Part shown: positions 34,468 through 50,584 of the stretch, one piece after another
How the letters are laid out: each line of letters starts with the position of its first letter
Numbering within the stretch: the stretch's first letter is position 1
Assembly (NCBI GenBank): GCA_944363395.1
Contig: CALVUC010000010.1
Location: 1 to 50,584 of the forward strand
Direction of reading: 5' to 3'
DNA from: an uncultured Clostridia bacterium
GTDB taxonomy: Bacteria > Bacillota > Clostridia > Christensenellales > Borkfalkiaceae
Length of the DNA: 50,584 bases
Position numbers and translations under genes: made by a program
Notes under the pieces: model-generated
Told to the model about the DNA's origin: nothing
What the model saw: only the letters and a program-made list of their open reading frames with translations
Database searches by the model: none

Positions 34468-34516
34468 ACGCTACCTGTTCGTTTCCTTTGATAAAAAGTA
34501 TTTTCAAACGATGTTG

Positions 34517-34545
34517 AGTATAGCATATTCCCGCCGAAAAGACAA
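34517..34545 (-). promoter_or_regulatory. Promoter of secG
   Basis: On the minus strand TTGTCT (34540-34545), a 17-base spacer and TATACT (34517-34522) with extended TGC. Confidence 0.7.
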
Positions 34546-34636
34546 CTTTTTTTGCGTCCCATTTGAAAATTGTTCGGAAAATCTTGCGCGGCGGCGAAAA
34601 AATTTCCCGAAAGCGCCCGCACGCCTTTGTCCGCGT

Positions 34637-34665
34637 TTGACATTTTATCACGCCTGCGTTATAAT
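34637..34665 (+). promoter_or_regulatory. Full-consensus promoter abutting aroK
   Basis: TTGACA (34637-34642), exactly 17 bases, then TATAAT (34660-34665). The A of the aroK ATG is seven bases after the -10, i.e. at the expected transcription start. Confidence 0.85.
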
Positions 34666-34671
34666 ATTTTC

Positions 34672-35181: not shown

Positions 35182-35184
35182 AGC

Positions 35185-36150: not shown

Positions 36151-36177
36151 GAGATACCCAAAGATCGAGAGGTTAAT

Positions 36178-37812
36178 ATGGACTACGAAGCACTTGCGGA
36201 GCGGCTGCTCCCCGGGGATTATCCCGACCTTGCCTCCTATGAAGAACTCTATCCGCCGCGCGCGCTCCCCAAGGGCGCGCAGGTCACCCGCCTTGCGCCC
36301 TCGCCGACGGGCTTTATCCACCTTGGAAACCTGTTTGTCGCGATCGCCAACGAGCGCATCGCCCATCAGAGCGGCGGAAAACTCTATCTGCGCATCGAGG
36401 ATACCGACCTGAAACGCAAGGTGGACGGCGCCGTGGAGGCGGTCATCGCCGCGCTCGACTATTTTGACATCCGCTTTGACGAAGGGGCGCAGATCGGCGG
36501 GGACGACACCTATGCGCCGTGGTATCAGCGGCAGCGCGCCGAGATCTACCGCGCATATGCAAAGGACCTCATCCGCCGCGGACGCGCCTACCCCTGTTTT
36601 TGTACGGAAGAGGAGCTTTCCGCCCTGCGCGAAGTGCAGACGGCGAACAAGGAGATCACGGGTTACTACGGAAAATACGCCCGCTGCCGCAATCTTACCG
36701 AGGCGGAGATCTTGCAAAACCTGGATGCGGGGAAACCCTTCGTCATCCGTCTGCGATCGATGGGCGATCCTTCGCACAAATTTATCTTCCGCGATGAGAT
36801 CAAGGGGGAGGTCACCGTCACCGAAAACGATCAGGACGTCGTCATTCTGAAGTCGGACGGCATCCCGACCTATCATTTCGCGCACGCGGTGGACGATCAT
36901 CTCATGCGTACGACGCTCGTCATCCGCGGCGAGGAGTGGCTCGCGTCTCTTCCCATCCATCTGGAACTTTTTGACGTCCTCGGCTTCCCCCGCCCCAAGT
37001 ACGGACACAATTGCTCGCTCATGAAGATGGAAGGCGGGTCCAAGCGCAAACTCTCCAAGCGCAAGGATCCCGAGCTCTCGCTCTCTTTCTATCGGCAGGA
37101 GGGCTACCATCCCTTCGCGGTCAAAGTGTATATGCTCACGCTGCTCAATTCCGATTTCGAGGAATGGCACATGAAGTTCCCCGACAAGCCGTTGGAGGAA
37201 TTCAAGTTCCGCATCGAAAAAATGAGCCGCAGCGGGGCGCTCTTTGACCTCGATAAACTCAACGATATCTCCCGTACGGAGCTCTCGCGCCTTTCGGCGG
37301 AGGAGATGCTCGCCTTCTTGAAGGAATGGGCGGAGACGTTCGGTTCGGACAAGGAGAAGGCTTATTTTTCCGACGAGGCATATCTTCTCAAAGTGCTCAA
37401 TCTTTGCATGGGTACGGCGGGCAAAAAGCGCAGGAAGGACTTCGTCACCGCCGGACAGGCGATGGGGGAGATCGGCTATTTCTTCGGCGAACCGCAGCAA
37501 AAGGACGAATACCGCGTGGATAACGAGACGAAGAACGCCGTCCTTGCGGGATTTCTGGACGTCTATGACGAGGCGGACGACGCACAGGCGTGGTTTGCAA
37601 AGGTCAAGAGCGTTGCCGCTTCCCTCGGCTTTGCCGCCGAGATGCGGGATTATAAGGCAGATCCTTCGGCGTACAAGGGCAGCGTCTCCGACGTTGCCGA
37701 AGTGCTCCGGATCGCCGTGACGGGCAGGGCAAATTCGCCCGACCTTTGGACGATCATGCGCATCCTGGGCGGAGAGCGTTCGCGCGCCCGTCTGGCTGCG
37801 GCGAAAGCATAG
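36178..37812 (+). CDS. gltX: Glutamyl-tRNA synthetase
   Basis: 544-residue class Ic synthetase charging tRNA-Glu. The HIGH motif is H48-L-G-N (PSPTGFIHLGN) and KMSKS is SKRKLSKRKDP near residue 290. It carries an unusual N-terminal extension of about 30 residues (YEALAERLLPGDYPDL) before the Rossmann fold. The start has a GAGAGG site. No T-box leader is visible. thyA and folA follow. Confidence 0.94.
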   Translation: MDYEALAERLLPGDYPDLASYEELYPPRALPKGAQVTRLAPSPTGFIHLGNLFVAIANERIAHQSGGKLYLRIEDTDLKRKVDGAVEAVIAALDYFDIRFDEGAQIGGDDTYAPWYQRQRAEIYRAYAKDLIRRGRAYPCFCTEEELSALREVQTANKEITGYYGKYARCRNLTEAEILQNLDAGKPFVIRLRSMGDPSHKFIFRDEIKGEVTVTENDQDVVILKSDGIPTYHFAHAVDDHLMRTTLVIRGEEWLASLPIHLELFDVLGFPRPKYGHNCSLMKMEGGSKRKLSKRKDPELSLSFYRQEGYHPFAVKVYMLTLLNSDFEEWHMKFPDKPLEEFKFRIEKMSRSGALFDLDKLNDISRTELSRLSAEEMLAFLKEWAETFGSDKEKAYFSDEAYLLKVLNLCMGTAGKKRRKDFVTAGQAMGEIGYFFGEPQQKDEYRVDNETKNAVLAGFLDVYDEADDAQAWFAKVKSVAASLGFAAEMRDYKADPSAYKGSVSDVAEVLRIAVTGRANSPDLWTIMRILGGERSRARLAAAKA

Positions 37813-37821
37813 GGAGAATAT

Positions 37822-38652
37822 ATGAGCAGAGCGGACGAAATTTTTATTGCAAACTGCAAAGAGATCATGGAACAGGGCGTCTGGGATACGGACGCCGAAG
37901 TCCGCCCGCGTTGGGAGGACGGCACGCCCGCGCATACCGTGAAAAAGTTCGGCATCGTCAATCGCTACGATCTGCAAAAGGAGTTCCCCATCCAGACCAT
38001 CCGCCGCTGCGCTTTCAAGTCATGCGTGGATGAGATCTTGTGGATCTGGCAGAAGAAGAGCAACAACGTCCGCGATCTCAATTCGCACATCTGGGACAGC
38101 TGGGCGGACGAGAGCGGCTCCATCGGCAAGGCGTACGGCTATCAGCTCGCCAAAAAGGCAATTTACAAGGAAGGGGAGTTCGATCAGGTGGACAGGGTGC
38201 TCTACGACCTGAAACACAACCCCGCGTCCCGCCGCATCATGACCAACCTCTATAACTTTGAAGATCTGCACGAGATGCACCTCTACCCCTGCGCTTATTC
38301 GATGACCTTCAACGTTTCTGGCGATACGCTCAACGCCATCCTCAATCAGCGGTCCAACGATATGCTCACGGCAAACAACTGGAACGTCGTGCAGTATGCC
38401 GTCCTGCTCATCATGATCGCGCAGGTGAGCGGCTTCAAGGCGGGCGAGCTCGTGCACGTCATCGCCGACGCGCATCTTTACGACAGGCATCTTCCCATCG
38501 TCCGCGAGATCGTCAAAAATCCGCCCAAGCCCGCGCCGAGGCTCATTGTCGATCCCGACGTCAAGGACTTTTATCAATTCACGGTGGACAGTTTCCGTCT
38601 GGAAAATTACGAATATACGCCGCTTGCGGCGAAGATCCCGGTGGCAATATGA
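37822..38652 (+). CDS. thyA: Thymidylate synthase
   Basis: 276-residue folate-dependent ThyA methylating dUMP. The nucleophile is Cys157 (LYPCAYSMTFNV). RSNDML, AHLYDRHLPIV and DVKDFYQFTVDSFRLENYEY are conserved. It overlaps folA by four bases, giving a thymidylate-dihydrofolate recycling pair. Confidence 0.96.
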   Translation: MSRADEIFIANCKEIMEQGVWDTDAEVRPRWEDGTPAHTVKKFGIVNRYDLQKEFPIQTIRRCAFKSCVDEILWIWQKKSNNVRDLNSHIWDSWADESGSIGKAYGYQLAKKAIYKEGEFDQVDRVLYDLKHNPASRRIMTNLYNFEDLHEMHLYPCAYSMTFNVSGDTLNAILNQRSNDMLTANNWNVVQYAVLLIMIAQVSGFKAGELVHVIADAHLYDRHLPIVREIVKNPPKPAPRLIVDPDVKDFYQFTVDSFRLENYEYTPLAAKIPVAI

Positions 38653-39146
38653 GAGCGATCCTTCACGCAGACAAAAAATGGGGCATCGGAAGGGCGAACG
38701 GTCTGATGTTTTCCCTTCCCGCCGACATGAAGTTTTTCCGCGAGACGACCAAGGGCAAGACGGTCGTGATGGGGCAGAACACCCTCCTTTCCTTCCCGGG
38801 CGGCAAACCCCTCAAAAACAGGACGAACATCGTCCTCTGCCCCGAAGATATCGAAGAGGACGTCGTTACCGTTCACGATTTGGAGGAACTGCTCGAAGAA
38901 GTCAAAAAATATCCTGCGGACGACGTGTTCGTCATCGGCGGGGCGAGCGTTTATAAACTGCTCTTTCCCTATTGCACGGAGATCCTCGTCACCAAGGTGG
39001 ACGCGGAGGGCGGCGCGGATGCTTTCGTCCCCGATCTCGATGCCGACGGGAGGTATGTGCTTGCCGCAGAGAGCGCACCCGTTGAGGACAACGGCTATAC
39101 CATCCGTTTCTGCACATACAGAAATTTGGCGCCGATCGGCGCGTAA
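38649..39146 (+). CDS. folA: Dihydrofolate reductase
   Basis: 165-residue DHFR regenerating tetrahydrofolate after the ThyA reaction. Seen are ADKKWGIGRANGLMFSLPADMKFFRE (substrate site), GKTVVMGQNTLLSFPGGKPLKNR and FVIGGASVYKLLFPYCTEILVTKVD. The start overlaps the thyA stop (ATGA). Confidence 0.95.
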   Translation: MRAILHADKKWGIGRANGLMFSLPADMKFFRETTKGKTVVMGQNTLLSFPGGKPLKNRTNIVLCPEDIEEDVVTVHDLEELLEEVKKYPADDVFVIGGASVYKLLFPYCTEILVTKVDAEGGADAFVPDLDADGRYVLAAESAPVEDNGYTIRFCTYRNLAPIGA

Positions 39147-39149
39147 AAG

Positions 39150-39180
39150 AAAAAATTTGCCCGCACAAGGCAAATTTTTT
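39150..39180 (+). terminator. Terminator after folA
   Basis: AAAAAATTTGCC and GGCAAATTTTTT pair around CGCACAA. Confidence 0.9.
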
Positions 39181-39202
39181 TGTGCTCCGCCATATTTTTT
39201 TC

Positions 39203-39231
39203 TTGCACAATCGCTCAAAAAGTATTACAAT
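39203..39231 (+). promoter_or_regulatory. Promoter of typA
   Basis: TTGCAC (39203-39208), a 17-base spacer and TACAAT (39226-39231); an AAGAGGT ribosome site follows before ATG 39256. Confidence 0.7.
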
Positions 39232-39255
39232 ACCACTTCGGAATAAGAGGTCACT

Positions 39256-41085
39256 ATGCTGAGAGAAGATTTACGGAATATTGCGATCATCGCACACGTC
39301 GACCACGGCAAGACGACGCTGGTCGACCAGATGCTCAAACAGGCGGGTACCTTCCGCGAGAATCAGGTCGTGGAGGACCGCGTCATGGACTCTGGCGCGC
39401 TCGAACGGGAGCGCGGCATCACCATCCTTGCCAAGAACACTTCCATCCACTACAAGGGCGTCAAGATCAACATCATCGATACGCCCGGTCACGCCGATTT
39501 CTCGGGCGAAGTCGAGCGCGTGCTCAAAATGGTCTCGGGCGTCCTCATCCTCGTGGATGCGGCGGAGGGACCCATGCCGCAGACGCGCTTTGTCACGCAG
39601 AAGGCGCTGGAGATGGGGCTGAAGCTCATCATCGTCATCAATAAGATCGACCGCCCCGATGCGCGCATCAAGGAGGTCATCGACGAGGTGCTCGAACTCC
39701 TGATGGATCTGGATGCTTCGGACGCCCAGCTCGAGAGCCCCTTCGTGTTCTGCTCGGGCAGGGACGGCACCGCTTCGCTGGACGAAAACAGCGCGGGCTC
39801 CGACCTTACGCCGCTCTTTGATACCATCCTTTCGCAGTTCCCGCCCTTGGAAATGGACGAGACGGGTCCTCTGCAGATCCTCGTTTCCTCCATCGACTAT
39901 AACGAATATGTCGGCAGGATCGGCATCGGACGGGTGGAGCGCGGCGTCGCCAAGGTCAATGCGGACGTCGTCGCCTGCAATTACAATCATCCGGAGGTCA
40001 ATCTGCGCGGGAAGCTCGTCAATCTCTATGAGATCGAAGGGCTCAACCGCGTCCCCTGCGAAAGTGCCTCCGCGGGAGACATCGTCTGTTTCTCGGGGCT
40101 GGAAAAGATCAACATCGGCGATACCGTCTGCGCCGCCGACTGCGTCGATCCCGTCGCCTTTGTCAAGATCTCCGATCCCACGGTCGAAATGATCTTCTCC
40201 GTCAACGATTCTCCTTTTGCGGGCAAAGAGGGGAAATTCGTCACGACCCGCCACTTGCGCGATAGGCTGTACCGTGAGCTTTTGCGCGACGTCTCGCTGC
40301 GCGTCGAGGACACCGATTCGACGGACGCCTTCCGTGTGAGCGGCAGGGGAGAGATGCACCTCTCCATCCTCATCGAGACGATGCGCCGCGAGGGGTACGA
40401 ATTTCAGGTCAGCTCCCCCAAGGTGCTCTACAAGGAGATGGACGGCGTGCGCTATGAGCCCATCGAGCGTCTCATCGTCGACGTGCCGGAGGATATGACG
40501 GGACCCGTGTTCCAGAGCATGGGAACGCGCAAGGGGGAACTTCTGCATATGCACGCGATGGGTTCCAGGATGCGCCTGGAGTTCCTCGTTCCTTCGCGCG
40601 GGCTGTTCGGCTATAAGAGCGAATTTCTGACGGATACCAAGGGCGAGGGCGTCATGAACGCCGTGTTCTTCGAGTATCAGCCCTATAAGGGCGAGATCGA
40701 CCGCCGCGACACGGGCTCGCTCGTCGCCTTTGAAACGGGCGAGGCGGTCACTTACGGGCTTTTCAACGCACAGGGCAGAGGGACGCTCTTCATCACGCCC
40801 GGCACGCCCGTGTACGAAGGGATGGTCGTCGGTTTTTCGCCCAAGGACGAGGACATCAACGTCAACGTCTGCAAGACCAAGCATCTGACCAATACGCGCT
40901 CCTCTTCCTCGGACGACGCGCTGCGCCTCATCCCGCCCAAGAAACTCAGCCTCGAGGAGGCGCTGGAGTTTCTCGGCGACGACGAACTGCTGGAAGTCAC
41001 TCCGCTCAATGTGCGCATCCGCAAGCGCATCCTCGATTCCGAGCTGCGCGCAAAAGCCCGCGCCAAAGCAAAATTACAGGCATAG
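39256..41085 (+). CDS. typA: Translational GTPase TypA/BipA
   Basis: 609-residue ribosome-binding GTPase. G1 is AHVDHGKTTLVDQ, switch I includes LERERGITILAKN, G3 DTPGHADFSGEVERVL, and G4 NKIDRPDA. Elongation-factor domains follow, then the TypA-specific C-terminal domain (GEAVTYGLFNAQGRGTLFITPG and VCKTKHLTNTRSSSSDDALRL). It is the last GC-rich core gene before the accessory region. Confidence 0.96.
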   Translation: MLREDLRNIAIIAHVDHGKTTLVDQMLKQAGTFRENQVVEDRVMDSGALERERGITILAKNTSIHYKGVKINIIDTPGHADFSGEVERVLKMVSGVLILVDAAEGPMPQTRFVTQKALEMGLKLIIVINKIDRPDARIKEVIDEVLELLMDLDASDAQLESPFVFCSGRDGTASLDENSAGSDLTPLFDTILSQFPPLEMDETGPLQILVSSIDYNEYVGRIGIGRVERGVAKVNADVVACNYNHPEVNLRGKLVNLYEIEGLNRVPCESASAGDIVCFSGLEKINIGDTVCAADCVDPVAFVKISDPTVEMIFSVNDSPFAGKEGKFVTTRHLRDRLYRELLRDVSLRVEDTDSTDAFRVSGRGEMHLSILIETMRREGYEFQVSSPKVLYKEMDGVRYEPIERLIVDVPEDMTGPVFQSMGTRKGELLHMHAMGSRMRLEFLVPSRGLFGYKSEFLTDTKGEGVMNAVFFEYQPYKGEIDRRDTGSLVAFETGEAVTYGLFNAQGRGTLFITPGTPVYEGMVVGFSPKDEDINVNVCKTKHLTNTRSSSSDDALRLIPPKKLSLEEALEFLGDDELLEVTPLNVRIRKRILDSELRAKARAKAKLQA

Positions 41086-41096
41086 TCAGGCGAAAG

Positions 41097-41119
41097 CCGT
41101 CCCGCGGGGACGGTTTTTT
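41097..41119 (+). terminator. Terminator after typA
   Basis: CCGTCCC-GCG-GGGACGG followed by TTTTTT. Confidence 0.9.
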
Positions 41120-41128
41120 GTATAGGAA

Positions 41129-41366
41129 AACCCCCAGATAGTCTGGGGGTTCAGGAATAGGCTAGTGCCGATGTGGTATTGAAAAAATGGCTCCATTCGT
41201 ATATAAAGGAGGTGCGACCTGCCAGTTGCACACAAAACGAATGGAGGACATTGAGAAATGAATCACAATGACAATAAGATTTTATCACAAGGTAAATATC
41301 CTTGGGGAATCATAATAAATAGTAGATTCGTCAAAATTGTTAGTTCAAGTCCCGTCACATAGACCA
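41129..41366. mobile_element. Hairpin-rich mobile-element remnant at the core/accessory junction
   Basis: A perfect 10-bp hairpin (AACCCCCAGA-TAG-TCTGGGGGTT, 41129-41151) is followed by an outer stem CTCCATTCGT/ACGAATGGAG (41191-41200, 41237-41246) enclosing an inner GTGCGAC/GTTGCAC stem. A short open start (MNHNDNKILSQGKYPWG) then runs into stop-rich sequence. End hairpins before a short leader are typical of IS200/IS605-like elements, but no transposase is recognisable. Treated as debris. Confidence 0.4.
41338..41366 (+). other. tRNA 3'-end-like fragment
   Basis: GTTCAAGTCCCGTCACATAGACCA resembles the T-loop, 3' T-stem, acceptor strand and CCA of a tRNA, but the 5' T-stem half (GTTAG) does not pair and no tRNA body precedes it. 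Integrative elements often leave such 3' tRNA ends at their attachment sites. It could also be coincidence. Confidence 0.35.
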
Positions 41367-41394
41367 TGATTGCAGACGAAAAGGCTGCAAAATA

Positions 41395-41433
41395 AAAAAA
41401 CCATGAAAAACAATGCGTTTTTCATGGTTTTTT
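41395..41433. terminator. Bidirectional terminator
   Basis: AAAAAACCATGAAAAA and TTTTTCATGGTTTTTT form a 16-bp stem around CAATGCG. Confidence 0.85.
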
Positions 41434-41685
41434 GCTGTTTAAGAGGCAAAAATAGGGGATTTTTGGAAGTGGATAAACGATAGAATTTTACGGCTGCAAT
41501 TTTATGTTTTATAGAAAAAACAGGTTTTGAACTGTCGAATAGGGTTGGGAAACAGATGCTATAAAGGGAGAAGATCGTTAAAAGAAATCGAAAAGCATAG
41601 CACCCTGTAAACAGAACGAAAAGGTATGTGCCCGATGCCGCAACAGCAGTGTATATAATTTTGATTTGAAAACTTGCAGAAATAA
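41434..41685. other. AT-rich spacer, nothing recognised
   Basis: No gene supported. The one longer minus-strand frame here (41578-41808) reads through the following terminator hairpin and shows only low-complexity Phe/Leu/Lys sequence, so it is not called. Confidence 0.5.
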
Positions 41686-41722
41686 AAGGAAAAAGAACGT
41701 CGTATAGGCGTTCTTTTTCCTT
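41686..41722. terminator. Bidirectional terminator
   Basis: AAGGAAAAAGAACG and CGTTCTTTTTCCTT form a perfect 14-bp stem. Confidence 0.85.
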
Positions 41723-41851
41723 AGTTTTACAATATCCTTACAAAGATTAACGAAATGCTTAAAAAAATCAAATATCGGACTTACAAATGCGGTGTATTCT
41801 ATGTGCAAGACAGTTCAAAGTGCTGTCAAATCAAAAAAGAGGAGAAAAACA

Positions 41852-42280
41852 ATGATCAAGAACACAATGCAGGCGAACTCGGAACTCGAAAAGGCGATCC
41901 GCGACAGGATCGAAACGGGTTTCAAAAATTGGAACGGCGGTTACGACGGCTGGCTCGAGTGATGTAACACGCTCTACGAGCCTGACGCGCACTACAATAT
42001 CCCGTTCGAGGGTTCGCAGAAACGCTGCACGTTGGAAGAGTATAAAGCCATGATGGGGCAGCTCTTTCAGCATTTCACAATGGAGCTCGGCGAATACGAC
42101 AATATGATCATCAAGGACAACTGGTGCGCGATCCGCTATACCGTAAAGGTCAAAAACCTGCATACGGGTAAGGAGATTTTGCAGCACACGATGGAGTTTG
42201 TCGAATTTAAAGACAACGGCGACGAACGCGGCGTGCGCGTGGTAGAAGGTTGGGCGCTTTCCGATTCCGCCCTCTGCTGA
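41852..42280 (+). pseudogene. NTF2/SnoaL-like protein interrupted by one TGA codon
   Basis: From ATG 41852 (GAGGAG ribosome site) the frame reads MIKNTMQANSELEKAIRD, then FKNWNGGYDGWLE, a TGA at 41960-41962 (codon 37), and continues as CNTLYEPDAHYNIPFEGSQK to the TGA stop at 42278. The total of 142 codons fits a SnoaL-type small alpha/beta protein, and a Trp codon (TGG) at the stop position would restore it. TGA is used as a normal stop throughout the window, so recoding is unlikely. Function of the intact gene is unknown. Confidence 0.7.
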
Positions 42281-42288
42281 ATAAATTC

Positions 42289-42317
42289 AAAAGGAACGCT
42301 TTGCGGGCGTTCCTTTT
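42289..42317 (+). terminator. Terminator after the NTF2-like pseudogene
   Basis: AAAAGGAACGC and GCGTTCCTTTT pair around TTTGCGG. Confidence 0.85.
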
Positions 42318-42402
42318 CCTTATAAAAACTATCGGCGCGGTTTTCGGAGGGTTATTGCGGCAGAAATTCATATTTTATTGTTGTTCTAACCATACTGATA
42401 CT

Positions 42403-43218
42403 ATGGCATACAGTTATAAAGGCAGTATCAGTTTCGGGCTGGTATATATCCCCGTTACGCTGCACAGCGCGGTAAGGGACAATTCAATCGGGTTCAATAT
42501 GATAGATAAAAAGACTATGAGCCGGGTGAAGTATAAAAAGACCAGCGCCGATTGCGATGGCGGGGAGGTAAAGCGGGAGGATATCGTCAAGGGCTTTGAA
42601 TACGAGGACGGTAAGTACGTTATTTTTGAAGATAAAGACTTTGAGAAGTTAAAATCAAAGAAAGACAAGAATATCACGATAGAAAAATTCGTCAAACTCT
42701 CCGATGTGGATCCGTTATATTTCGATAAGCCTTACTATGTCATCCCCACAGGCGCGGAAAAGGCGTTTGCCGTGCTGCTTGCCGCTATGGAGCAGGAGGG
42801 TAAAGCAGCTGTCGCAAAGACGGTGCTTGGAACAAACGAAACGCTTATACTAATCAGGGCAAGAAACGGACAGATGCTTTTGAACACGCTGTTTTTCGAG
42901 GAGGAAATTACTGCCAATCCCGCAAAAGAGGTAAAGGAGCAGGGCAGCGAGGCCGAACTCAAAATGGCAAAGGCATTGATTGAGGGTATGAGCGGTAAGT
43001 TTGTTCCCGAAGATTACAAAGACGAATACCGCCAAAGAATACAGGCAGCAATCGAATGCAAGATAGCGGGTAAGGAAATAGTTGCTCCCAAGGACAACGG
43101 CAGCGGTAAGATGATAGATTTAATGGAAGCCTTGACAAAGAGCCTCGAACTTACACAAAAGCCAAAGCCTGCTAAACGCGTTGCGTCAAAGAAAGCGGCG
43201 GAGCGTAAAAAGGCATGA
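42403..43218 (+). CDS. ku: Non-homologous end-joining protein Ku
   Basis: 271-residue bacterial Ku, a homodimer that rings DNA ends and recruits the ligase. MAYSYKGSISFGLVYIPVTL at the start and DVDPLYFDKPYYVIP are diagnostic; the tail is Lys/Ala-rich and basic (KPAKRVASKKAAERKKA), as in DNA-sliding Ku tails. ATG 42403 is chosen by family alignment; no Shine-Dalgarno is seen. It overlaps the ligase gene (ATGA). Base composition is lower in GC than the typA side, suggesting acquisition. Confidence 0.95.
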   Translation: MAYSYKGSISFGLVYIPVTLHSAVRDNSIGFNMIDKKTMSRVKYKKTSADCDGGEVKREDIVKGFEYEDGKYVIFEDKDFEKLKSKKDKNITIEKFVKLSDVDPLYFDKPYYVIPTGAEKAFAVLLAAMEQEGKAAVAKTVLGTNETLILIRARNGQMLLNTLFFEEEITANPAKEVKEQGSEAELKMAKALIEGMSGKFVPEDYKDEYRQRIQAAIECKIAGKEIVAPKDNGSGKMIDLMEALTKSLELTQKPKPAKRVASKKAAERKKA

Positions 43219-44129
43219 GCGATTTGTTTGATGAGAAGAATATTTCACCCATGCTGCTCTATGAAACGCAGCCGTTCGACGATAAAGATTACATTTATGA
43301 ATTAAAGTTGGATGGCATCCGCTGTCTGGCTTATATTGACGCAAAGTCCGTAAACTTGCGCAACAAACGCAATAAGGACGTTACAGCAATTTATCCCGAA
43401 CTTGCAGAAATGAATAAGTGCGTAAAAAAGCGCGTAATACTTGACGGTGAGCTTGTCGTACTCGATAAAGACGGCAAGCCCGATTTTTATGCCCTGCAAA
43501 GGCGCAGTTTAATGGCGGATAGCTTTAAAATAGGTCTCTCCGCAAGGAACGCTCCCGTGCAGTTCGTGGCTTACGACATTATATATTTTGATGGGCAAGA
43601 TTTAACGGATAAACCGCTTACCGAGCGCAAAGCTATACTTTCCAAAGCGGTAAAAGAAGGATACAATCTTTCCGTATCGAGATATATAGAGGAGATGGGT
43701 ACAGCTTTCTTTGAGATTGCCAAGGCGCAGGAGTTGGAAGGAATTGTGGCAAAGCGTAAAGGTGGTCTGTACCACATAGGCAAGCGCACGCGCGACTGGC
43801 TCAAAATCAAAGTCATGCAGGACGAAGATTTGCTTGTTTTGGGTTACCAACCGGATGAGGACGGCAAGGTGAAAGACCTTATATTGGGCTACTACGACGA
43901 AGAAGGCAAACTGCAATGCCGCGGCAAAGTCTACCTCGGCATATCGGAGGAAGAGAGAAGAATAATCGAGAATTTTGCCATGCAAAACCGCATTCAAAAG
44001 CCGTGGTTCGGCAAATATAAAAATGCGGTTTGGCTTAAACCGCAGCTTGTTGGCACGGCGCACTTTATGCACGAAACGCAGAGCGGCGGAATGCGCCAGC
44101 CCGTCTGGAAAGGACTGCGGACTGATTGA
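43215..44129 (+). CDS. ligD: ATP-dependent DNA ligase (LigD ligase domain only)
   Basis: 304-residue ligase sealing ends held by Ku. Motif I is ELKLDGIR with adenylation Lys31; motif IV-like ELEGIVAKRKGGLY and motif V DWLKIKVM follow, with a C-terminal OB fold (CRGKVYLGISEEERRIIENFA). It lacks the polymerase and nuclease modules of full LigD, so end processing must come from elsewhere. It is co-transcribed with ku. Confidence 0.92.
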   Translation: MSDLFDEKNISPMLLYETQPFDDKDYIYELKLDGIRCLAYIDAKSVNLRNKRNKDVTAIYPELAEMNKCVKKRVILDGELVVLDKDGKPDFYALQRRSLMADSFKIGLSARNAPVQFVAYDIIYFDGQDLTDKPLTERKAILSKAVKEGYNLSVSRYIEEMGTAFFEIAKAQELEGIVAKRKGGLYHIGKRTRDWLKIKVMQDEDLLVLGYQPDEDGKVKDLILGYYDEEGKLQCRGKVYLGISEEERRIIENFAMQNRIQKPWFGKYKNAVWLKPQLVGTAHFMHETQSGGMRQPVWKGLRTD

Positions 44130-44135
44130 ATTTTC

Positions 44136-44182
44136 TTGACAAATCTAATTTTAAGTATTAGAATACTATAAACAAATGTTTG
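44136..44182 (+). promoter_or_regulatory. SOS-type promoter: sigma-A promoter with LexA box
   Basis: TTGACA (44136-44141), a 17-base spacer and TAGAAT (44159-44164). Right after the -10 lies AAACAAATGTTTG (44170-44182), identical over 13 bases to the box at lexA. LexA bound here would block initiation. The polymerase reading frame it would have controlled is truncated. Confidence 0.75.
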
Positions 44183-44189
44183 TTAGGGG

Positions 44190-44913
44190 GGCGTCCCCGC
44201 CGATAAAGACGGCGTCCGCATCGCAGAGCTTGACGAAATGACCTATCGCAGAACATTATGGAGTCACTGCCCGCTTACCGATTTCTGGCGCGTGGGCAGG
44301 GGGTATGCAGATAAGCTGCAAAAATACGGGTTATATACAATGGGCGACATCGCCCGCTGTTCGGTGGAGAAGGATAAGCTGTATAACGAAGATTTATTAT
44401 ATCGTATGTTCGGAATAAATGCAGAGTTGCTCATCGACCACGCATGGGGGGCCGACAACTATTGCAGACATAAAGAGCTACAAGCCGCAGTCAAGCAGCA
44501 TAGGTTCGGGGCAGGTATTGCAGGAGCCGTATCCCTACGAAAAGGCAAAGCTGGTAGTGACGGAAATGGCAGACGCACTCGCGCTCGACCTTGTGGTAAA
44601 GGGGCTTGTTACCAATCAGATAGTAATAACAGTAGGCTACGACTGCGACAACGAAAATTATGACGGCGAATATTCCGTTGACCGTTATGGCAGAAAAATA
44701 CCCAAGCACGCCCACGGCACATATAATCTTGACGGGTATTCATCTTCGGGTAAATATCTGCGCTATGCTACCACCGAATTTTTTGACAGAATAGTCGATA
44801 AAAAACTCTTTATTCGCCGTCTGTATATAGCGGCGACAAAGGTGGTGGATAGGGAAAACGCCCCGCAGAGCGGAGCCGAGCAGCTTGATTTCTTTAAGGA
44901 CTTTGAGGAGTAA
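44190..44913 (+). pseudogene. Y-family DNA polymerase (UmuC/DinB-like), N-truncated and frameshifted
   Basis: The frame opens inside the protein (VPADKDGVRIAELDEMTYRR) and gives PLTDFWRVGRGYADKLQKYG, then LLYRMFGINAELLIDHAWG. Near a run of six G (about 44443-44450) it shifts to PTTIADIKSYKPQSSSIGSG and continues through the little-finger domain to the C-terminal clamp-binding-like EQLDFFKDFEE. The N-terminal catalytic part (palm and fingers, roughly 185 residues) is gone, yet the promoter and LexA box remain just upstream, so an internal deletion fused promoter to gene middle. Confidence 0.88.
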
Positions 44914-44916
44914 ACC

Positions 44917-44948
44917 GCTTATCCCGATGAGGGATAAGCCTTTTTTTT
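44917..44948 (+). terminator. Terminator after the polymerase pseudogene
   Basis: GCTTATCCC-GATGA-GGGATAAGC followed by eight T. Confidence 0.92.
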
Positions 44949-45054
44949 CGTGCCCTAAAACAGCCTAAAAAAGGCTTAAAGAAAGTATTTTTCCATATTA
45001 AGTTGAACACTTGATTTATAGTCCAAAATTTGGATGCTATTTTTTTGGTAAGTA

Positions 45055-45083
45055 TTGACAACTATTGATAAAATTGGTATAAT
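45055..45083 (+). promoter_or_regulatory. Full-consensus promoter of the RiPP-like operon
   Basis: TTGACA (45055-45060), a 17-base spacer and TATAAT (45078-45083) with an extended TGG before the -10. ACTATCA (45087-45093) and TGATAGT (45131-45137) downstream form a small inverted repeat that could be an operator or leader hairpin. Confidence 0.85.
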
Positions 45084-45205
45084 AGTACTATCAAAAAAGT
45101 AAAGAGAACTACAGGATCGAACATTTTGCTGATAGTGTGCTGCGACAGGTTATTGGGCATGTATTGAGAAGCTGTTTTACGGACTTCAGTTTTAGAAAAA
45201 ATTTG

Positions 45206-45214
45206 TGATATAAT
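45206..45214 (+). promoter_or_regulatory. Second, extended -10 promoter before the first radical SAM gene
   Basis: TGA-TATAAT at 45206-45214 without a good -35. It would give a leader of about 20 bases with an AGAGGT ribosome site before ATG 45240. Confidence 0.5.
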
Positions 45215-45239
45215 ATACATTTAGAGGTATGGATGTTAT

Positions 45240-46229
45240 ATGGATTACCAATTTTTTAGGGAGAAGGGATACTTTAAATTCCCACCAATTTTACAAATTG
45301 AAATCACACAGAAGTGTCCATTAAGTTGTCCGCAATGTTATAAAAACTTAGATGAGAAGGAGATGCCGTTTGATTTTTTAAAGGATTCTATAATAAATGC
45401 AAGCAGGAATGGAACTAAACACATTGTATTAAATGGAGGAGAGCCGTTTGTATATAGTAAAATTTTTGATGTTTTAGAAATTGTAGACAGGCTTGATGTG
45501 CAAGTGACACTATTTACAAGCGGCTATGGAATTCATCTTGAAGAAGTACAAGCGTTGAAAGTGTATCAGAACTTGCATATAGGTGTTTCCTTTAATGGAT
45601 CATGTGAGGCGATTCATAGCTTATCAAGAGATGGATTTGACATATCTTATAGTGCAGCAAAATTATTTGCAGAGCAAAATTTACATTATTTCATAAATTG
45701 GGTGGCTAGACACGATAATGTCATGGATTTTGAAGATCTAATACTATTCGCTCAAAAAAACAAAGCGGATTTTATTAATATCGTAGGCAATAAATTGGAT
45801 GGAACAGGAAAAATATTCCAATCCCTGACACGTGCTGACTATGAGTACCTTAAAAAGGTAATTATAAACAATAGAAGTATATGTAGTATCCAAAACTGCT
45901 ACAATACTCTACAGGTATTTTGTTATGGAGCAAATAAAAGCCATATTATCGGATGCGCAGCTGGGATAACATTCTGCTGTATAAATGTTGATGGTTCATT
46001 TATGCCTTGTACGCATTTATACTATCCGGAAAAATATAGTGATTTAAATCAATATTGGGAAAAATCTAAAGTTCTATATATGTTGCGCCATAGAAAAACA
46101 ACGGGTCGTTGCTCAACATGTATAAATTCGCCATATTGCAATTTTTGCAAAGCTATGTCGGAACAATCTTATAGAAATTTTGACATAGGACTTCCCAATT
46201 GTGTAAATTACCAAAAGGAAATAATATGA
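45240..46229 (+). CDS. Radical SAM/SPASM protein 1 of the RiPP-like cluster
   Basis: 329-residue radical SAM enzyme. The [4Fe-4S]-SAM motif is Cys26-x3-Cys30-x2-Cys33 (CPLSCPQC) and the SAM-binding NGGEPF follows near residue 70. The C-terminal third is Cys-rich (GCAAGITFCC, MPCTHLYYPE, CSTCINSPYCNFC), a SPASM-type region that would hold auxiliary iron-sulfur clusters. It has no long N-terminal domain, unlike its neighbour. Such proteins cross-link or epimerise residues in ribosomal peptides. It overlaps the next gene (ATGA). Strongly AT-rich compared with the core genome. Confidence 0.85.
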   Translation: MDYQFFREKGYFKFPPILQIEITQKCPLSCPQCYKNLDEKEMPFDFLKDSIINASRNGTKHIVLNGGEPFVYSKIFDVLEIVDRLDVQVTLFTSGYGIHLEEVQALKVYQNLHIGVSFNGSCEAIHSLSRDGFDISYSAAKLFAEQNLHYFINWVARHDNVMDFEDLILFAQKNKADFINIVGNKLDGTGKIFQSLTRADYEYLKKVIINNRSICSIQNCYNTLQVFCYGANKSHIIGCAAGITFCCINVDGSFMPCTHLYYPEKYSDLNQYWEKSKVLYMLRHRKTTGRCSTCINSPYCNFCKAMSEQSYRNFDIGLPNCVNYQKEII

Positions 46230-47524
46230 ATTATCTATGGACAAAATATTTATTTTATAAATTTATTGACGACGAAAAGATTTATTTATACAATTTTAGG
46301 AATGGTAAAGATTTTTTTCTATCAAAAGAAGAATTTGAAACGAAAAAATTTAAAGACGATAATGAATTTCACTTTTTAGTTTCAAATGAGTTTTTGGTAG
46401 ATTCTAATGTTGATGAGCTTTCTGAATACATTGCGAATGCGGAAAATGAAGTTTTAACAAAGCATAAGTTAGAGCTAACGATTATTCCGACAGATGCATG
46501 TAATTTTAGATGTGTTTATTGTTATGAAACAAAAGAATCGCATCGTATGAGTGAAGAAAGTTGGGATATCTTGTTTCAATATGTTTATAAACAACTTCCT
46601 AAACTAAGTATGCTAATTATTAATTGGTTTGGGGGAGAGCCATTATTATGTTCAAATGAAGTAATTAAATTCATGAATTCTTGCAAAGCGGCTTGTAAAG
46701 AGTTTCGAGTATTATTATTTTCTACAATGACAACAAATGCATATCTTTTATCTACAGATGTGTTTAACGGGTTAGTTAGAAGTGGAGTTTATTTTTTTCA
46801 AATTACAGTTGATGGGTTGGAGCACACGCATAATAGGCAAAGACCATTAAAATCAGGCGCAGGAAGTTTTGAAAAGATTATTTCAAACTTAAGGAATATA
46901 AAGAAAAGTTGTAAATTTCCATTTATTCAAATTGTTATACGAGTGAATATAAGTAAAAACATAATAAGAGATTTTGAATCTTTTCTGAATTTTTTCGAAA
47001 AAAATTTTGGGGAAGATAAGCGATTTATTCTCTATATTGAAAAAGTACAAGATTGGGGCGGGGAGGACATAAAATCATTTAAATGCAATATGCCGACTGA
47101 TAAAAACTATATTATGGCTTGGGAAATGGCTGCTGAAAAAGAGATTAATGTTCCAGAATTTTTTAAATATAGTCATGAAATTAATGTATGTGCGGCGAGT
47201 CGAGAAAATGGTTTTATAGTCAATTGGGATTTGACATTGCATAAATGCACCTTAGCCATGTATGATTTAGACACGGATATACGCTTGTTAAATTGTATAG
47301 GGAAAATTAAATCGGACGGAGTAGCTTTTATTGATAGGGGAAAACAAAAAACTTGGGTTGGGATAAAAAAAGACTTATCAAAATGTCAATCATGTAAGTT
47401 TTTACCGCAATGTTATGCAGTGGGCTGTTCTTACAGAAGAGTTAAAGGTATTGCAGAGGATTGCAGAAAAGAAGATCTTAATAGTATTTGTATGATACAA
47501 TTTAGTCGTATAGGAGAAATATAA
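46226..47524 (+). CDS. Radical SAM/SPASM peptide maturase 2 (CcpM-like)
   Basis: 432-residue radical SAM enzyme with about 85 residues ahead of the cluster motif Cys92-x3-Cys96-x2-Cys99 (CNFRCVYCYE). Then come NWFGGEPLL and TTNAYLL, and a C-terminal SPASM domain (LHKCTLAMYD, then CQSCKFLPQCYAVGCSYRR, then EDC). The layout matches peptide-modifying maturases; from memory the closest named class is the Cys-rich-peptide maturase CcpM of clostridia. The N-terminal part may bind the precursor leader. ATG 46226 has an AAGGAAA site. It overlaps the carrier protein gene by one base. Confidence 0.85.
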   Translation: MNYLWTKYLFYKFIDDEKIYLYNFRNGKDFFLSKEEFETKKFKDDNEFHFLVSNEFLVDSNVDELSEYIANAENEVLTKHKLELTIIPTDACNFRCVYCYETKESHRMSEESWDILFQYVYKQLPKLSMLIINWFGGEPLLCSNEVIKFMNSCKAACKEFRVLLFSTMTTNAYLLSTDVFNGLVRSGVYFFQITVDGLEHTHNRQRPLKSGAGSFEKIISNLRNIKKSCKFPFIQIVIRVNISKNIIRDFESFLNFFEKNFGEDKRFILYIEKVQDWGGEDIKSFKCNMPTDKNYIMAWEMAAEKEINVPEFFKYSHEINVCAASRENGFIVNWDLTLHKCTLAMYDLDTDIRLLNCIGKIKSDGVAFIDRGKQKTWVGIKKDLSKCQSCKFLPQCYAVGCSYRRVKGIAEDCRKEDLNSICMIQFSRIGEI

Positions 47525-47745
47525 TGTACGAAAAGATAAAAGCAATTCTTGAGAGTGTCGGGATTTACGATTTTGAATCTGAAAATTTGGAAATAGATTC
47601 ACTGCAGCTAATTTCGATTTTAGTGTCCTTAGAGGAAGAATTTAATGTCAGCATTGACGAAATGGTTATCTTAGACACGAAATTACAATCAATTAATGAT
47701 TTTGTTTCTTTATTGAAGAGCGTAGGAGTGGAAAATTTAGATTAA
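47524..47745 (+). CDS. Acyl-carrier-like protein of the peptide maturation cluster
   Basis: 73-residue four-helix carrier-protein fold with the phosphopantetheine attachment motif Asp25-Ser26-Leu27 (IDSLQLISILVSLEEEF). Carrier proteins in a RiPP setting are unusual; clostridial Clo7bot-type cassettes are the known exception, as I recall. It may tether an acyl or amino-acyl group, or simply serve as a scaffold. No phosphopantetheinyl transferase is seen in the window. The ribosome site is AGGAGA; the start overlaps the maturase stop. Confidence 0.85.
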   Translation: MYEKIKAILESVGIYDFESENLEIDSLQLISILVSLEEEFNVSIDEMVILDTKLQSINDFVSLLKSVGVENLD

Positions 47746-47746
47746 G

Positions 47747-47767
47747 AACGCTATGTAGCGTTTTTAA
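47747..47767 (+). terminator. Terminator between carrier protein and precursor
   Basis: AACGCT-ATGT-AGCGTT followed by TTT, starting two bases after the carrier-protein stop. The stem is short, so partial read-through is expected. Confidence 0.7.
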
Positions 47768-47792
47768 AATACATATGGGGAGGTAATTAGTC

Positions 47793-47876
47793 ATGAAAAA
47801 GCTTCAAAAGCCGCGCTCGAAGAAGACAATGGTTTGTCTTTTCATTGAGAACGGCTGGCTTGGTTGCAGCTGCTAA
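47793..47876 (+). CDS. Candidate RiPP precursor peptide, 27 residues with three Cys
   Basis: A short gene too small for routine gene callers, behind the strongest ribosome site of the cluster (GGGGAGGT, 47777-47784, eight bases from ATG). It encodes a basic, Cys-free N-terminus (MKKLQKPRSKK) and a hydrophobic C-terminus with Cys15, Cys25 and Cys27 (CLFIENGW, then GCSC at the end). The charge split looks like leader plus core. The Lys-x-x-Lys-Pro start recalls Clo7bot-type precursors from memory. It is framed by hairpins at 47747-47767 and 47891-47915 and lies between the carrier protein and the peptidase fusion. Its codons are more GC-rich than those of its neighbours. Confidence 0.75.
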   Translation: MKKLQKPRSKKTMVCLFIENGWLGCSC

Positions 47877-47890
47877 AAACTAAGTGGAAC

Positions 47891-47915
47891 CACTACGGCA
47901 TTTTGTGCCGTAGTG
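47891..47915 (+). terminator. Strong hairpin after the precursor gene
   Basis: CACTACGGCA and TGCCGTAGTG form a perfect 10-bp stem around TTTTG, followed by CGTTTCC rather than a long T run. Such hairpins behind precursor genes often protect the short mRNA or reduce read-through. It covers a potential GTG start at 47913, so the next gene starts at 47940. Confidence 0.75.
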
Positions 47916-47939
47916 CGTTTCCGCGCCTGGGGAGAAAAA

Positions 47940-49685
47940 ATGAGCAAAATAGTTATAATTGATAGTGGTGTTGCAAAAGATGTTATAGGCAATTGCAGTG
48001 GATATAATTTAATAGATTATTCTTTGAATATTGAAGATGATCTTGGACATGGAACCGCTGTTGCGTATCAAATTTCAAAACAACATCCATATTTATCTAT
48101 TTTTATTATAAAACTGTTTGATAAAGAGCATCGAGAAATTAGTGAAGAGAAATTAATTGAGGCGTTAGATTGGATTTATAATCAATTAGATGATTACATC
48201 TTAATTCATATAAGTGCTGGAATTAAGACTTGTGATAATTATTATCAATTAGAAAAGATTTGTAAAAAGTTTTTTAAGAAGAATATATTTATTGTAAGTG
48301 CTTTCGATAATGCGGGGTGCATGTCTTTCCCGGCTGCATTTGAAAATGTTATAGGGGTGGATTATGATGTAACCTGTGTTGATGCAAGCACTTATATTCA
48401 TATAAAAAATTCACCTGTTAATTTTAAAGCCAAAGGTATTGATTGGCGTCTCCCAAATGAAAAAGGGCATTTCTGCACTGTATCAGGATCAAGCTTTGCA
48501 GCTCCAGTGATATCTAATAAGATAATCGATTTGTATTATAGATACAGAGATTATAACGTAATATTAAAAAAATTGATAGAGGGAGCAAATCGTATTGAAG
48601 AAAATCCAAAGTTATATGTAAATAACGGACCAGATTTTCATATTAATGAGGCGATTGTATTGCCCTATAATAAAGAAATTCAAACTTTAGTTTTAAATCA
48701 AAATAAATTAAAATTTGAAATTAAAGAAATTGTCGAGATAGGAATATCGCAAAAGCAAGATAAGTATACTTCCATTGCATATAAGAATATTAATTGGGCA
48801 GATAAACATTTTGATACAGTCATCTTGGGGCATCTTGAAGTTCTAGAGAAAGCGACTAATTTGAAAATAACTGAAAATGTTATTAAAAATTGCTTGATGT
48901 ATCGTAAAAATTTATATGCATTCGACGATATATCCTCGTATAAGGATATATTAAATGAGTTTAAGAAAAACGGGATATCATATTATTATTATCCGGTAAA
49001 GCAAAAGATTAATAAAACTTCTACAGTTAGACGGTTATATAACTTTAGTACTCCAGTACTGGGTGTCGTTGGTACTAGTCCTCGGCAAGGTAAATTAACA
49101 TTACAGGTTAATTTAAAATCATCATTAGAAAACGTAGGATATAAATGTGGTTTTTTTAGTACGGAGCAATCAGGGTTTTTATACGGTGCAGACTGTATTT
49201 TCCCGAATGGTTATGGATCTGGAAATTCCAATGAAAGTATTAATACAATCATATTAATAAATAAAATGATGCATAGCATAGATATAAAAGGTTATGATAT
49301 TATCTTAGTGGGATTTCAATCTCAAATAATCCCCTATAGCTTAGGGAACATAGGATTTTATCCTTTGGCGCAACATGATCAAATACTAGCTACTTGTCCT
49401 GATGGTTTTATTTTAACAGTAAATTATGACGATGCGGAAGATTATATCGAAAGGGCAATTAATTATTTAAATTCAATAGTCTATGGAGAAGTAATAGCAA
49501 TATACCTGTTTGGATACAAAATAGATCGACTATCTTTTATTCAGCATAAGGAACCTGTCAATATTGAAAAGGATTTGTTATCAGCGAAAGCAAGAAGCCT
49601 CGCGGAAAAATTTGGCATTCCCGTATTTTTCGATAACCAATATTCTGAATTGATTGAGACAATCGAAAATTTTTTTCAGGAATAA
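47940..49685 (+). CDS. Subtilisin-like (S8) peptidase fused to a P-loop peptide-maturation domain
   Basis: 581-residue two-part protein. Residues 1-about 230 are an S8 domain with every key residue: Asp8 (VIIDSG), His37 (LGHGTAVA), oxyanion Asn124 (AFDNAG) and Ser185 (SGSSFAAPV). There is no signal peptide or propeptide, so it acts in the cytosol. From about 370 an ATPase-like domain begins with GTSPRQGKLTLQ (residues 378-389), a P-loop of the DUF1611 style, followed by CGFFSTEQSGFLYGADCIFP. The second part resembles, from memory, the TIGR04066 peptide maturation proteins. A likely role is leader removal coupled to NTP-dependent handling of the modified peptide. ATG 47940 has a GGGGAG site. 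Confidence 0.8.
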   Translation: MSKIVIIDSGVAKDVIGNCSGYNLIDYSLNIEDDLGHGTAVAYQISKQHPYLSIFIIKLFDKEHREISEEKLIEALDWIYNQLDDYILIHISAGIKTCDNYYQLEKICKKFFKKNIFIVSAFDNAGCMSFPAAFENVIGVDYDVTCVDASTYIHIKNSPVNFKAKGIDWRLPNEKGHFCTVSGSSFAAPVISNKIIDLYYRYRDYNVILKKLIEGANRIEENPKLYVNNGPDFHINEAIVLPYNKEIQTLVLNQNKLKFEIKEIVEIGISQKQDKYTSIAYKNINWADKHFDTVILGHLEVLEKATNLKITENVIKNCLMYRKNLYAFDDISSYKDILNEFKKNGISYYYYPVKQKINKTSTVRRLYNFSTPVLGVVGTSPRQGKLTLQVNLKSSLENVGYKCGFFSTEQSGFLYGADCIFPNGYGSGNSNESINTIILINKMMHSIDIKGYDIILVGFQSQIIPYSLGNIGFYPLAQHDQILATCPDGFILTVNYDDAEDYIERAINYLNSIVYGEVIAIYLFGYKIDRLSFIQHKEPVNIEKDLLSAKARSLAEKFGIPVFFDNQYSELIETIENFFQE

Positions 49686-49691
49686 TCAATC

Positions 49692-50564
49692 ATGCAAATT
49701 ATATGTTTAAATTGTAGAGGTCCTTTAAAGAAAACTGGACAAGATTATACTTGTTCATGTTGCGGGAAAGTCTATTCGACTTATGGTAATGCTATAAACT
49801 TTGTGGACGAATATATAGATAACGGTATTATCGATGTATATGAGAATATAAATGATAAATATAATGAAACATCGATTGGAAAATATGTTAATTTCATGAA
49901 TCTTGGGTATTGTGAGAATTCAAATGAAAATTTGATAGGAAAATCAGCTTTTCAAAATAGTATTATAAATAGAAATTCGATATCATTAATCTTAAAGATT
50001 TTCTATCAGATGAATTTGGAAAATCTGGATGTATTAGATTTAGGATGTGGAAGATGTGGCGCGATATATACTATACAAAGAATGTATAAAAGCTGTAGAT
50101 TGTATGGAATAGATATTTGTAAAAATGGACTGCTTGGCAAAATCACAAATAATGAATTAATTATTTGTGATTTTCAAAATGATATACCATTCGAGTCGGA
50201 TAGTTTTAATTTAGTCTATTCTATTGAGGTTTTCCATGTAATAACTTATATGGATAAAGCGCTTCAAAATATTTATCGTGTTCTTAAACGTGGAGGGGAA
50301 TTTATTATTGCGGATGCTTTTACATCGAATAAATGCCAAAGTATACTTGAATATGCGAAAAAAGTTGGATTCACTCTTTTGCGTATATGTGATATCACAA
50401 AAAATGTTTTACAATCTTGTAAAGCGATTAGTAAAAATAGGATAGAGGTTCTAGGAAAAAGTTATCGTGAAATGATTGGTGCTCCAGGATCTTCATTTTT
50501 TACACAGATGGAAAATGGAATTTTACGATATAAAGTTTTTTATTTTACTAAGAAAAACGAATAG
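49692..50564 (+). CDS. Zinc-ribbon class I SAM methyltransferase
   Basis: 290-residue protein. The N-terminal zinc ribbon has two CxxC-type pairs (CLNC at 5-8 and CSCC at 21-24), followed by a linker and a Rossmann methyltransferase core: motif I VLDLGCGRCG, acidic LYGIDICKNG, then IPFESDSFNLVYSIEVFHVI and VLKRGGEFIIADAF. It starts six bases after the peptidase-fusion stop, within the same operon. It may methylate the peptide or a group on the carrier protein. The sequence after its stop (50565 on) still carries AGAGG-like purine tracts, so another gene may follow beyond the window. Confidence 0.82.
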   Translation: MQIICLNCRGPLKKTGQDYTCSCCGKVYSTYGNAINFVDEYIDNGIIDVYENINDKYNETSIGKYVNFMNLGYCENSNENLIGKSAFQNSIINRNSISLILKIFYQMNLENLDVLDLGCGRCGAIYTIQRMYKSCRLYGIDICKNGLLGKITNNELIICDFQNDIPFESDSFNLVYSIEVFHVITYMDKALQNIYRVLKRGGEFIIADAFTSNKCQSILEYAKKVGFTLLRICDITKNVLQSCKAISKNRIEVLGKSYREMIGAPGSSFFTQMENGILRYKVFYFTKKNE

Positions 50565-50584
50565 AAGGACATAAGAGGTCGAGT

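Follow-up and report, generated by a model that had tools for sequence, protein, structure and literature searches.

A predicted peptide maturation cassette with a protease/P-loop fusion protein, related to but distinct from the CcpM/CLI_3235 systems, in an uncultured Clostridia bacterium

The stretch of DNA analysed here (the window, 50,584 nucleotides; contig C10 of genome G000, an uncultured Clostridia bacterium with 1.6 Mb in 60 contigs) carries a cassette of six genes at 45055-50564 on the + strand. They code for two radical S-adenosylmethionine (SAM) enzymes, a carrier protein, a 27-residue peptide with three Cys, a fusion of an S8 (subtilisin-like) protease with a P-loop domain, and a methyltransferase. 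We are highly confident that this is a genuine cassette of the type that makes ribosomally synthesised and post-translationally modified peptides (RiPPs), and that it is a sister of the CcpM system without being a member of it. Judged from its sequences, it is a divergent sister of the CcpM/CLI_3235 cassettes, outside the cut-offs of their four NCBIfam families. Profile comparisons further place the P-loop half of the fusion as a remote relative of DUF1611, the family of the N-acetyltransferase DgcN, a link that is new. The features on which the argument turns are these:

46226..47524, + strand, radical SAM 2, a SPASM-type peptide maturase of 432 residues with C92-x3-C96-x2-C99 (TIGR04463, 168.6 bits)
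47524..47745, + strand, carrier protein of 73 residues with a phosphopantetheine-site Ser26 in the motif IDSL (PF00550, 28.1 bits; cut-off 20.8)
47793..47876, + strand, precursor peptide MKKLQKPRSKKTMVCLFIENGWLGCSC, 27 residues with exactly three Cys, and a GGAGG Shine-Dalgarno sequence
47940..48635, + strand, S8 protease domain of the fusion protein, residues 1-232, with D8, H37, S185 and N124 (QhpE model NF049966, 80.7 bits)
48648..49682, + strand, DUF1611/TIGR04066-like P-loop domain of the fusion protein, residues 237-581, Walker A at 378-387 (TIGR04066, 66.8 bits; cut-off 200)

The 27-residue peptide is considered real because a related peptide is present in each of four other cassettes, found in genomes G254, G398, G445 and G246, and the cassette itself is not a chance assembly, since the same core recurs in these four genomes. 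Together the five cassettes code for eight such peptides (one in the window, three in G254, two in G398 and one each in G445 and G246), those outside the window being of the type MKK..L.K...C. The three tandem copies in G254 end in IWCC, VHCC and VVCC and vary solely just ahead of the final Cys pair, in the manner of RiPP cores; both G398 copies end in NCWC and differ at one inner residue, while the G445 and G246 peptides end in KKYEGCC and NCNCTAGC, respectively. The peptide genes adjoin the carrier gene in four cassettes (window, G398, G445 and G246), and those of G254 precede the fusion gene, the carrier being about 5 kb away. A pattern that was written after the peptides had been seen was searched in 516 kb of fetched loci, where it matched nine of 53 small open reading frames (ORFs) with a ribosome site, eight of them being the known peptides, and none of 322 ORFs in five Markov re-samplings. 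Twelve distant radical SAM relatives in viral contigs were used as background in this search. No NCBIfam family matched the window peptide. A conserved short precursor encoded together with the modifying enzyme, one criterion for a RiPP, is found in 5/5 cassettes.

Radical SAM 2 defines this lineage. When its profile was run against a sample of 391 genomes of the class, 19 matched at E-values up to 1e-45; the four rows of the profile itself scored 650-687 bits, the G246 protein (contig C51) 340, and the next 302 and below. The preliminary description of this DNA had named homologues lacking a small Cys peptide as the outcome that would speak against it, and all five members of the lineage were found to have both a carrier and this type of peptide in the cassette (a model built with these carriers included scores them at 80-112 bits). 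Seven Cys in addition to the C92-x3-C96-x2-C99 motif are invariant across the four alignment rows, and the best PDB match of a profile built from radical SAM 2 and three relatives is 5wgg (1.2e-21), which we take to be CteB. The maturases of TIGR04463, TIGR04334 (Clo7bot) and CefB are among the best whole-protein matches, all far below their cut-offs (168.6 vs 525, 134.4 vs 600 and 135.2 vs 600 bits, respectively), as is TIGR04068 (82.5 vs 500). Unlike in the window's lineage, no carrier was found in the six next-best loci read (G208, G420, G286, G341, G561 and G410). In loci L117 and L120, radical SAM 2-related genes lie close to small hydrophobic ORFs (FDNDEILWFIILFLLLFFCRP..C) that may represent a different kind of precursor, and in L121 (6959-7066) a small ORF with a terminal GCGCGCGCGCGCG repeat adjoins a radical SAM gene, with an ABC (ATP-binding cassette) gene close by.

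Matches to the fusion protein (gene at 47940-49685, + strand) were obtained in 52 of the 391 class genomes, and full-length fusions in three, G000, G254 and G398; the G445 copy is cut by a contig end and G246 retains a remnant only. Nearly all other matches among those listed cover one half only, and the long match in G491 (3-415) is an S8 protein with a worn tail. In a sample of 398 genomes of the phylum, 75 genomes had a match at 1e-10, and there was no additional full-length fusion; among 201 genomes of the window's own family the fusion occurs in G000 only, and the families of G254 (22 genomes), G445 (11) and G246 (4) yielded no new one at 1e-18. The fusion protein was not found in the phages and viral contigs searched, and a plasmid search returned only two distant lone S8 proteases. 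The fusions of the relatives are 36-37% identical to that of the window, and their carriers 29-38%. D8, H37 and S185, presumably the S8 triad, and N124, presumably the oxyanion Asn, are invariant in the three full-length fusions, as are the Walker A residues within 378-387. The protease half had been described at first as catalytically complete. Its match to the QhpE model spans 4-202 and stays below the cut-off of 165 bits. A tree built from 58 S8 rows puts the four S8 domains of the fusion type in one clade (support 100/99) and the seven from CcpM-type loci in another (100/99).

A likeness to the CcpM and Clo7bot cassettes had been suggested at the outset, with profile searches of TIGR04065-TIGR04068 and SPASM families as the check. 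The kinship holds in so far as this is a related operon of the RiPP type with similarity to those families; every score lies below its cut-off, and membership in either system was rejected. For comparison, eight loci (L073-L080) were read that had been picked by their hits to the S8 and TIGR04066 halves and hence are not a random sample. A CcpM-like radical SAM enzyme, TIGR04066 and S8 occur together in six of them (L074-L078 and L080), whereas L079 has S8 but no TIGR04066, and L073, a contig of 5 kb, holds a piece of S8. The canonical proteins behave as expected of family members: 5/5 enzymes tested (that of L077 was left out) score 615-649 bits with TIGR04068 (cut-off 500), 2/2 reach 432.4 and 460.2 bits with TIGR04066 (cut-off 200), and 1/1 reaches 86.2 bits with TIGR04069 (cut-off 70), for which the window's carrier attains 22.9 bits. 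Canonical precursors were found in five of these six loci. All five pass TIGR04065 at 30.5-38.2 bits (cut-off 26), while 0/5 window-type peptides match it, one of the three G254 copies and one of the two G398 copies having been taken for this test.

Known examples of the CcpM/CLI_3235 type are the SacP23 cluster of Paenibacillus polymyxa and a cluster of Roseburia intestinalis L1-82. Shared with these are a leader that starts MKKLxK, a radical SAM maturase, a carrier-like protein, a TIGR04066 homologue and an S8 protease, and the published clusters include an ABC transporter. The window differs in that its precursor is very short with the Cys at the C-terminal end, its radical SAM enzyme is of another family, S8 and TIGR04066 are fused, and the carrier Ser and Walker A, which are lost in CcpM, are intact. 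The protease in itself is no novelty, and we rejected it as such: in the portions of PMC10731318 and PMC4573289 that were available, the CcpM-type gene set includes a subtilisin-like protease beside TIGR04066. Since this partnership was already known, it is the fusion that represents the variant, and of the difference first proposed only this part is new. In the same portions, neither source gives a tested function for TIGR04066 or TIGR04069, and PMC10731318 guesses at an immunity role for the former; PMC9062424, in the part available, merely names CcpM.

In this comparison, two motifs are kept or lost together. The carrier Ser is retained in 5/5 carriers of the window's lineage and in 0/10 distinct CcpM-type carriers (from eight genomes), where it is replaced by P in seven, A in two and T in one. 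Likewise, Walker A is intact in 4/4 proteins of the window's lineage (GTSxxQGKxT or GTDSSQGKFT) and lost in 8/8 canonical TIGR04066 proteins, in which NK or DK replaces GK. Left out of these counts are a weak carrier hit of 338 residues (27.6 bits), another fragment of the window, two truncated copies of its fusion and a TIGR04066 fragment of 100 residues; the G246 remnant (contig C71, with an internal stop and no S8 half) is counted for Walker A only, and the G445 fusion, which ends ahead of the P-loop, is left out of the Walker A count. The carrier had been likened to those of CcpM for its DSL motif. It is a true DSL carrier, but the likeness fails, as CcpM carriers lack the Ser. This gene content, its conservation, the domain homology and the joint presence of an intact P-loop and carrier Ser are observed features of the lineage, and the joint retention or loss of the two motifs hints at a common reaction in which carrier and P-loop take part.

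The separate S8 proteins of the CcpM-type loci (L074-L078 and L080) seem to carry a worn TIGR04066-like tail. As a profile, this tail matches the fusion halves at 96.6% and canonical TIGR04066 at 75.8%; the six tails taken as single sequences are weak (14.9, 15.8, 71.1, 12.7, 1.0 and 1.4), other S8 tails of at least 100 residues give 5.1 or less, and against DUF1611 there is no match (2.6). A protease with a P-loop tail may therefore be the older arrangement.

What had been described as a P-loop maturation domain is indeed a TIGR04066-like P-loop domain, and its label is corrected here to DUF1611-like. The C-terminal halves of the fusions match DUF1611 (a set of seven proteins from plasmid records) at 96.5% over 168 columns in hhalign, and canonical TIGR04066 does so at 94.4% over 212 columns. 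In two intact relatives the DUF1611 model PF07755 scores 37.5 and 33.9 bits (cut-off 25) and is covered almost completely (12-189 and 5-190 of 201 positions); the window's domain lies close to the cut-off, with 25.6 bits in the genome search and 23.4 as a protein. A PF07755 match alone was not accepted as proof, since a CobB protein scores equally, and for this reason profile controls were added: against the fusion halves, CobB (a single sequence) gave 15.5, an ABC protein 0.7, a radical SAM protein 0.3 and reversed DUF1611 0.5. A profile of three fusion halves has a sole significant match among PDB sequences, 2g0t (6.2e-6), which we take to be a DUF1611 protein and whose plasmid relatives carry annotation in agreement with that identity. 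Members of DUF1611 are annotated as 'N-acetyltransferase DgcN' of a D-glutamate pathway, including one of Pseudoalteromonas CF6-2. The homology of DgcN to the P-loop half is remote, with Walker A kept, and the neighbours of the CF6-2 gene are a regulator and an epimerase rather than a protease, carrier or peptide.

Of several possible mechanisms, we favour one that may be called 'cut and cap', in which the S8 half frees an N-terminus and the DUF1611 half acylates it from the carrier; we put its probability at about 0.4. It is the presence of a DUF1611 relative and an apparently working carrier beside a leader protease that leads to this reading, and the individual chemical steps, the cleavage site, the acyl group and the export are all inferred. 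The 27-residue peptide would be bound via its MKKLxKP leader and modified by radical SAM 2 in its C-terminal Cys region, with radical SAM 1 and the methyltransferase possibly adding further modifications in the case of the window. The carrier would gain a phosphopantetheine arm on Ser26 and then an acyl or aminoacyl group. In the cytosol the S8 half would remove the leader, and a core of perhaps 4-8 residues would remain (GWLGCSC in the window; IWCC, VHCC, VVCC and NCWC in the relatives). The DUF1611 half would pass the carrier-bound acyl group on to the amine exposed by the cut, and the product would leave through ABC exporters, which are present in relatives and are not seen before the window's contig ends.

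There is a precedent for the proposed cleavage: as described in PMC7876137, a peptide cross-linked by a radical SAM enzyme loses its leader to QhpE while still in the cytosol, ahead of ABC export, so that the QhpD/QhpE/QhpF system resembles the cassette in its cross-linking by a radical SAM enzyme, its subtilisin-like leader protease and its export. It differs in that the substrate is an enzyme subunit and that the QhpE model, with its 219 positions, lacks a P-loop half. We know of no carrier in quinohemoprotein amine dehydrogenase maturation.

Several points weigh against cut and cap. The link between the two motifs is essentially one contrast between two clades, not a series of independent events. 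The window's own P-loop domain scores 23.4 bits with PF07755 when searched as a protein, below the cut-off of 25, and the same model scores a CobB at 25.9 bits; with a ten-row profile, the match to 2g0t loses its significance (E 0.11). The substrate of DgcN is a free amino acid rather than a peptide, we know of no use of a carrier by this enzyme, and P-loop relatives such as CobB are ATP-dependent ligases. No carrier-loading gene was identified in the stretches read. Finally, the CcpM loci keep degenerate forms of these proteins, so that the complex may have a role without acyl transfer.

A bolder form of the proposal is that a single polypeptide acts both as the leader protease and as an N-acyltransferase dependent on the carrier, that its products are N-acylated peptides of only 4-8 residues modified by radical SAM chemistry, and that the window's lineage is the catalytically complete form of which the CcpM relatives are pseudo-versions, their TIGR04066 lacking Walker A and their TIGR04069 the phosphopantetheine Ser. 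We consider this possible but doubtful. Unlikely, though the strongest of the alternatives, is that the DUF1611-like half is an ATP-dependent ligase or a conformational ATPase whose task is to load the carrier, activate a carboxylate or drive a handover of the peptide, with no N-acyl cap being formed. This follows the logic of the dethiobiotin synthetase/CobB superfamily and would fit the Walker A motif intact in 4/4 cases as well as the PF07755 score of CobB, which is as high as that of the window's domain; yet the profile comparison favours DUF1611 (96.5) over the single CobB sequence (15.5), the relatives match PF07755 over almost its full length, and the only significant PDB match is a DUF1611 protein. 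It is quite unlikely that the carrier holds an amino acid or peptide, as in DltC or aminoacyl carriers, for instance for a C-terminal or side-chain extension with the amide formed by a transglutaminase-like or the DUF1611 protein. The carrier profile does match D-alanyl (25.5 bits) and aminoacyl carriers (24.4 bits), and transglutaminase-core proteins occur in 2/5 cassettes (G398 and G246), but acyl carrier proteins score slightly higher (up to 29.9 bits) and no adenylation or aminoacyl-loading gene was seen in the stretches read, no search having been aimed at one. Still less likely is a fusion that only cuts the leader, its P-loop half and the carrier being scaffolds for recognition, which is probably their role in CcpM cassettes: judging by the degenerate homologues kept there, the wider family seems to include a non-catalytic function, but scaffolds would not require that both motifs persist at the low identities found among fusions and carriers of the window's lineage. 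That the 27-residue ORF is a leader or attenuator ORF, or due to chance, with the enzymes acting on another substrate, is highly improbable. The ORF does sit between two predicted hairpins and lacks a match among curated precursor families, but peptides of its type occur in 5/5 cassettes and the G254 variants differ just where a core would.

The remaining features of the cassette are its promoter, two accessory enzymes and the hairpins:

45055..45083, + strand, sigma-70-type promoter TTGACA-17-TATAAT with TG before the -10 element (12/12 match)
45240..46229, + strand, radical SAM 1, 329 residues, CPLSCPQC motif, NirJ2/PqqE/SkfB-like (PF04055, 46.7 bits)
47742..47767, + strand, predicted hairpin where the carrier gene ends, ahead of the peptide gene (-11 kcal/mol, z -2.1)
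47884..47924, + strand, predicted strong hairpin directly after the peptide gene (-26.7 kcal/mol, z -3.3)
49692..50564, + strand, SAM-dependent methyltransferase, 290 residues (PF08241, 61.7 bits)

The layout given in the preliminary description was confirmed: six tightly packed genes on one strand, a perfect promoter, overlapping starts (4 bases between radical SAM 1 and 2, 1 base between radical SAM 2 and the carrier), a second and distinct radical SAM enzyme, and an AT-rich island with a GC content of about 30%, vs 54-64% upstream to about 41 kb. The promoter is the sole 12/12 match in 44880-50584, among 40 promoter-like sites, where shuffled DNA has a mean of 34.4 (sd 6.4) sites scoring at least 9/12. 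The two predicted hairpins could set expression of the precursor apart from that of the enzymes; Rfam gave no match in 40000-50584. Because the contig ends 20 bases past the methyltransferase gene, the 3' end of the operon is not visible.

Radical SAM 1, which may act in the pathway, was not found in the four related cassettes and within this lineage occurs in the window only. It scores 72.1 bits with NirJ2 (cut-off 500) and has SkfB and PqqE as PDB matches; homologues in the class sample (E-values up to 1e-22) are restricted to G420 and G380, have 35-36% identity and are not surrounded by such a cassette. Accessory genes vary within the lineage: radical SAM 1 and the methyltransferase in the window, a methyltransferase (with no BLASTP match to that of the window) and a transglutaminase-core protein in G398, a transglutaminase-core protein in G246 and a beta-lactamase-like hydrolase in G254. 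Two ABC exporter genes each are present in G254, G398 and G445, and a gene of G246 that is truncated at a contig end resembles, by eye, the membrane half of an ABC exporter. A broken DUF1611-type remnant in G246 (L035, 8212-9141) adjoins an ABC gene, on a contig other than that of the radical SAM/carrier/peptide cassette.

DNA that is 100% identical was found on short contigs of two other metagenome bins (CALXFG010000051.1, Clostridia, and CALVBU010000039.1, Gastranaerophilales), and of the region tested (30600-50584) both contigs match the window only inside 45351-50584. This recurrence establishes that the sequence is real; it could reflect horizontal transfer or misbinning, which are indistinguishable here. 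In a second copy (locus L031, 4342-4761 and 5787-5827), a partial duplication of 426 bases spans the fusion/methyltransferase junction (window 49342-49767), and this copy extends 167 bases beyond the window end, where a new ORF seems to begin behind a ribosome site. Plasmids contained no near match to 40000-50584, and viral contigs no exact match to the start of the peptide gene. Between the GC-rich core and the AT-rich cassette lies a region of about 45% GC (42250-44913) with genes which we take to code for Ku, an ATP-dependent DNA ligase and a Y-family-polymerase-like remnant split over two frames; plasmid relatives of this remnant carry the annotation 'DNA methylase'.

TIGR04066 and TIGR04069 have so far been known as 'peptide maturation system' proteins. 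The link of the former to DUF1611/DgcN, together with the joint retention or loss of the two motifs, turns their function into a simple enzyme question, namely whether the fusion transfers an acyl group from the carrier to the N-terminus that the cut sets free. Should the proposed mechanism hold, ribosomal peptides would be N-acylated by a new route whose very small precursors lend themselves to engineering, and it would become clear from what the CcpM proteins are derived or into what they have turned.

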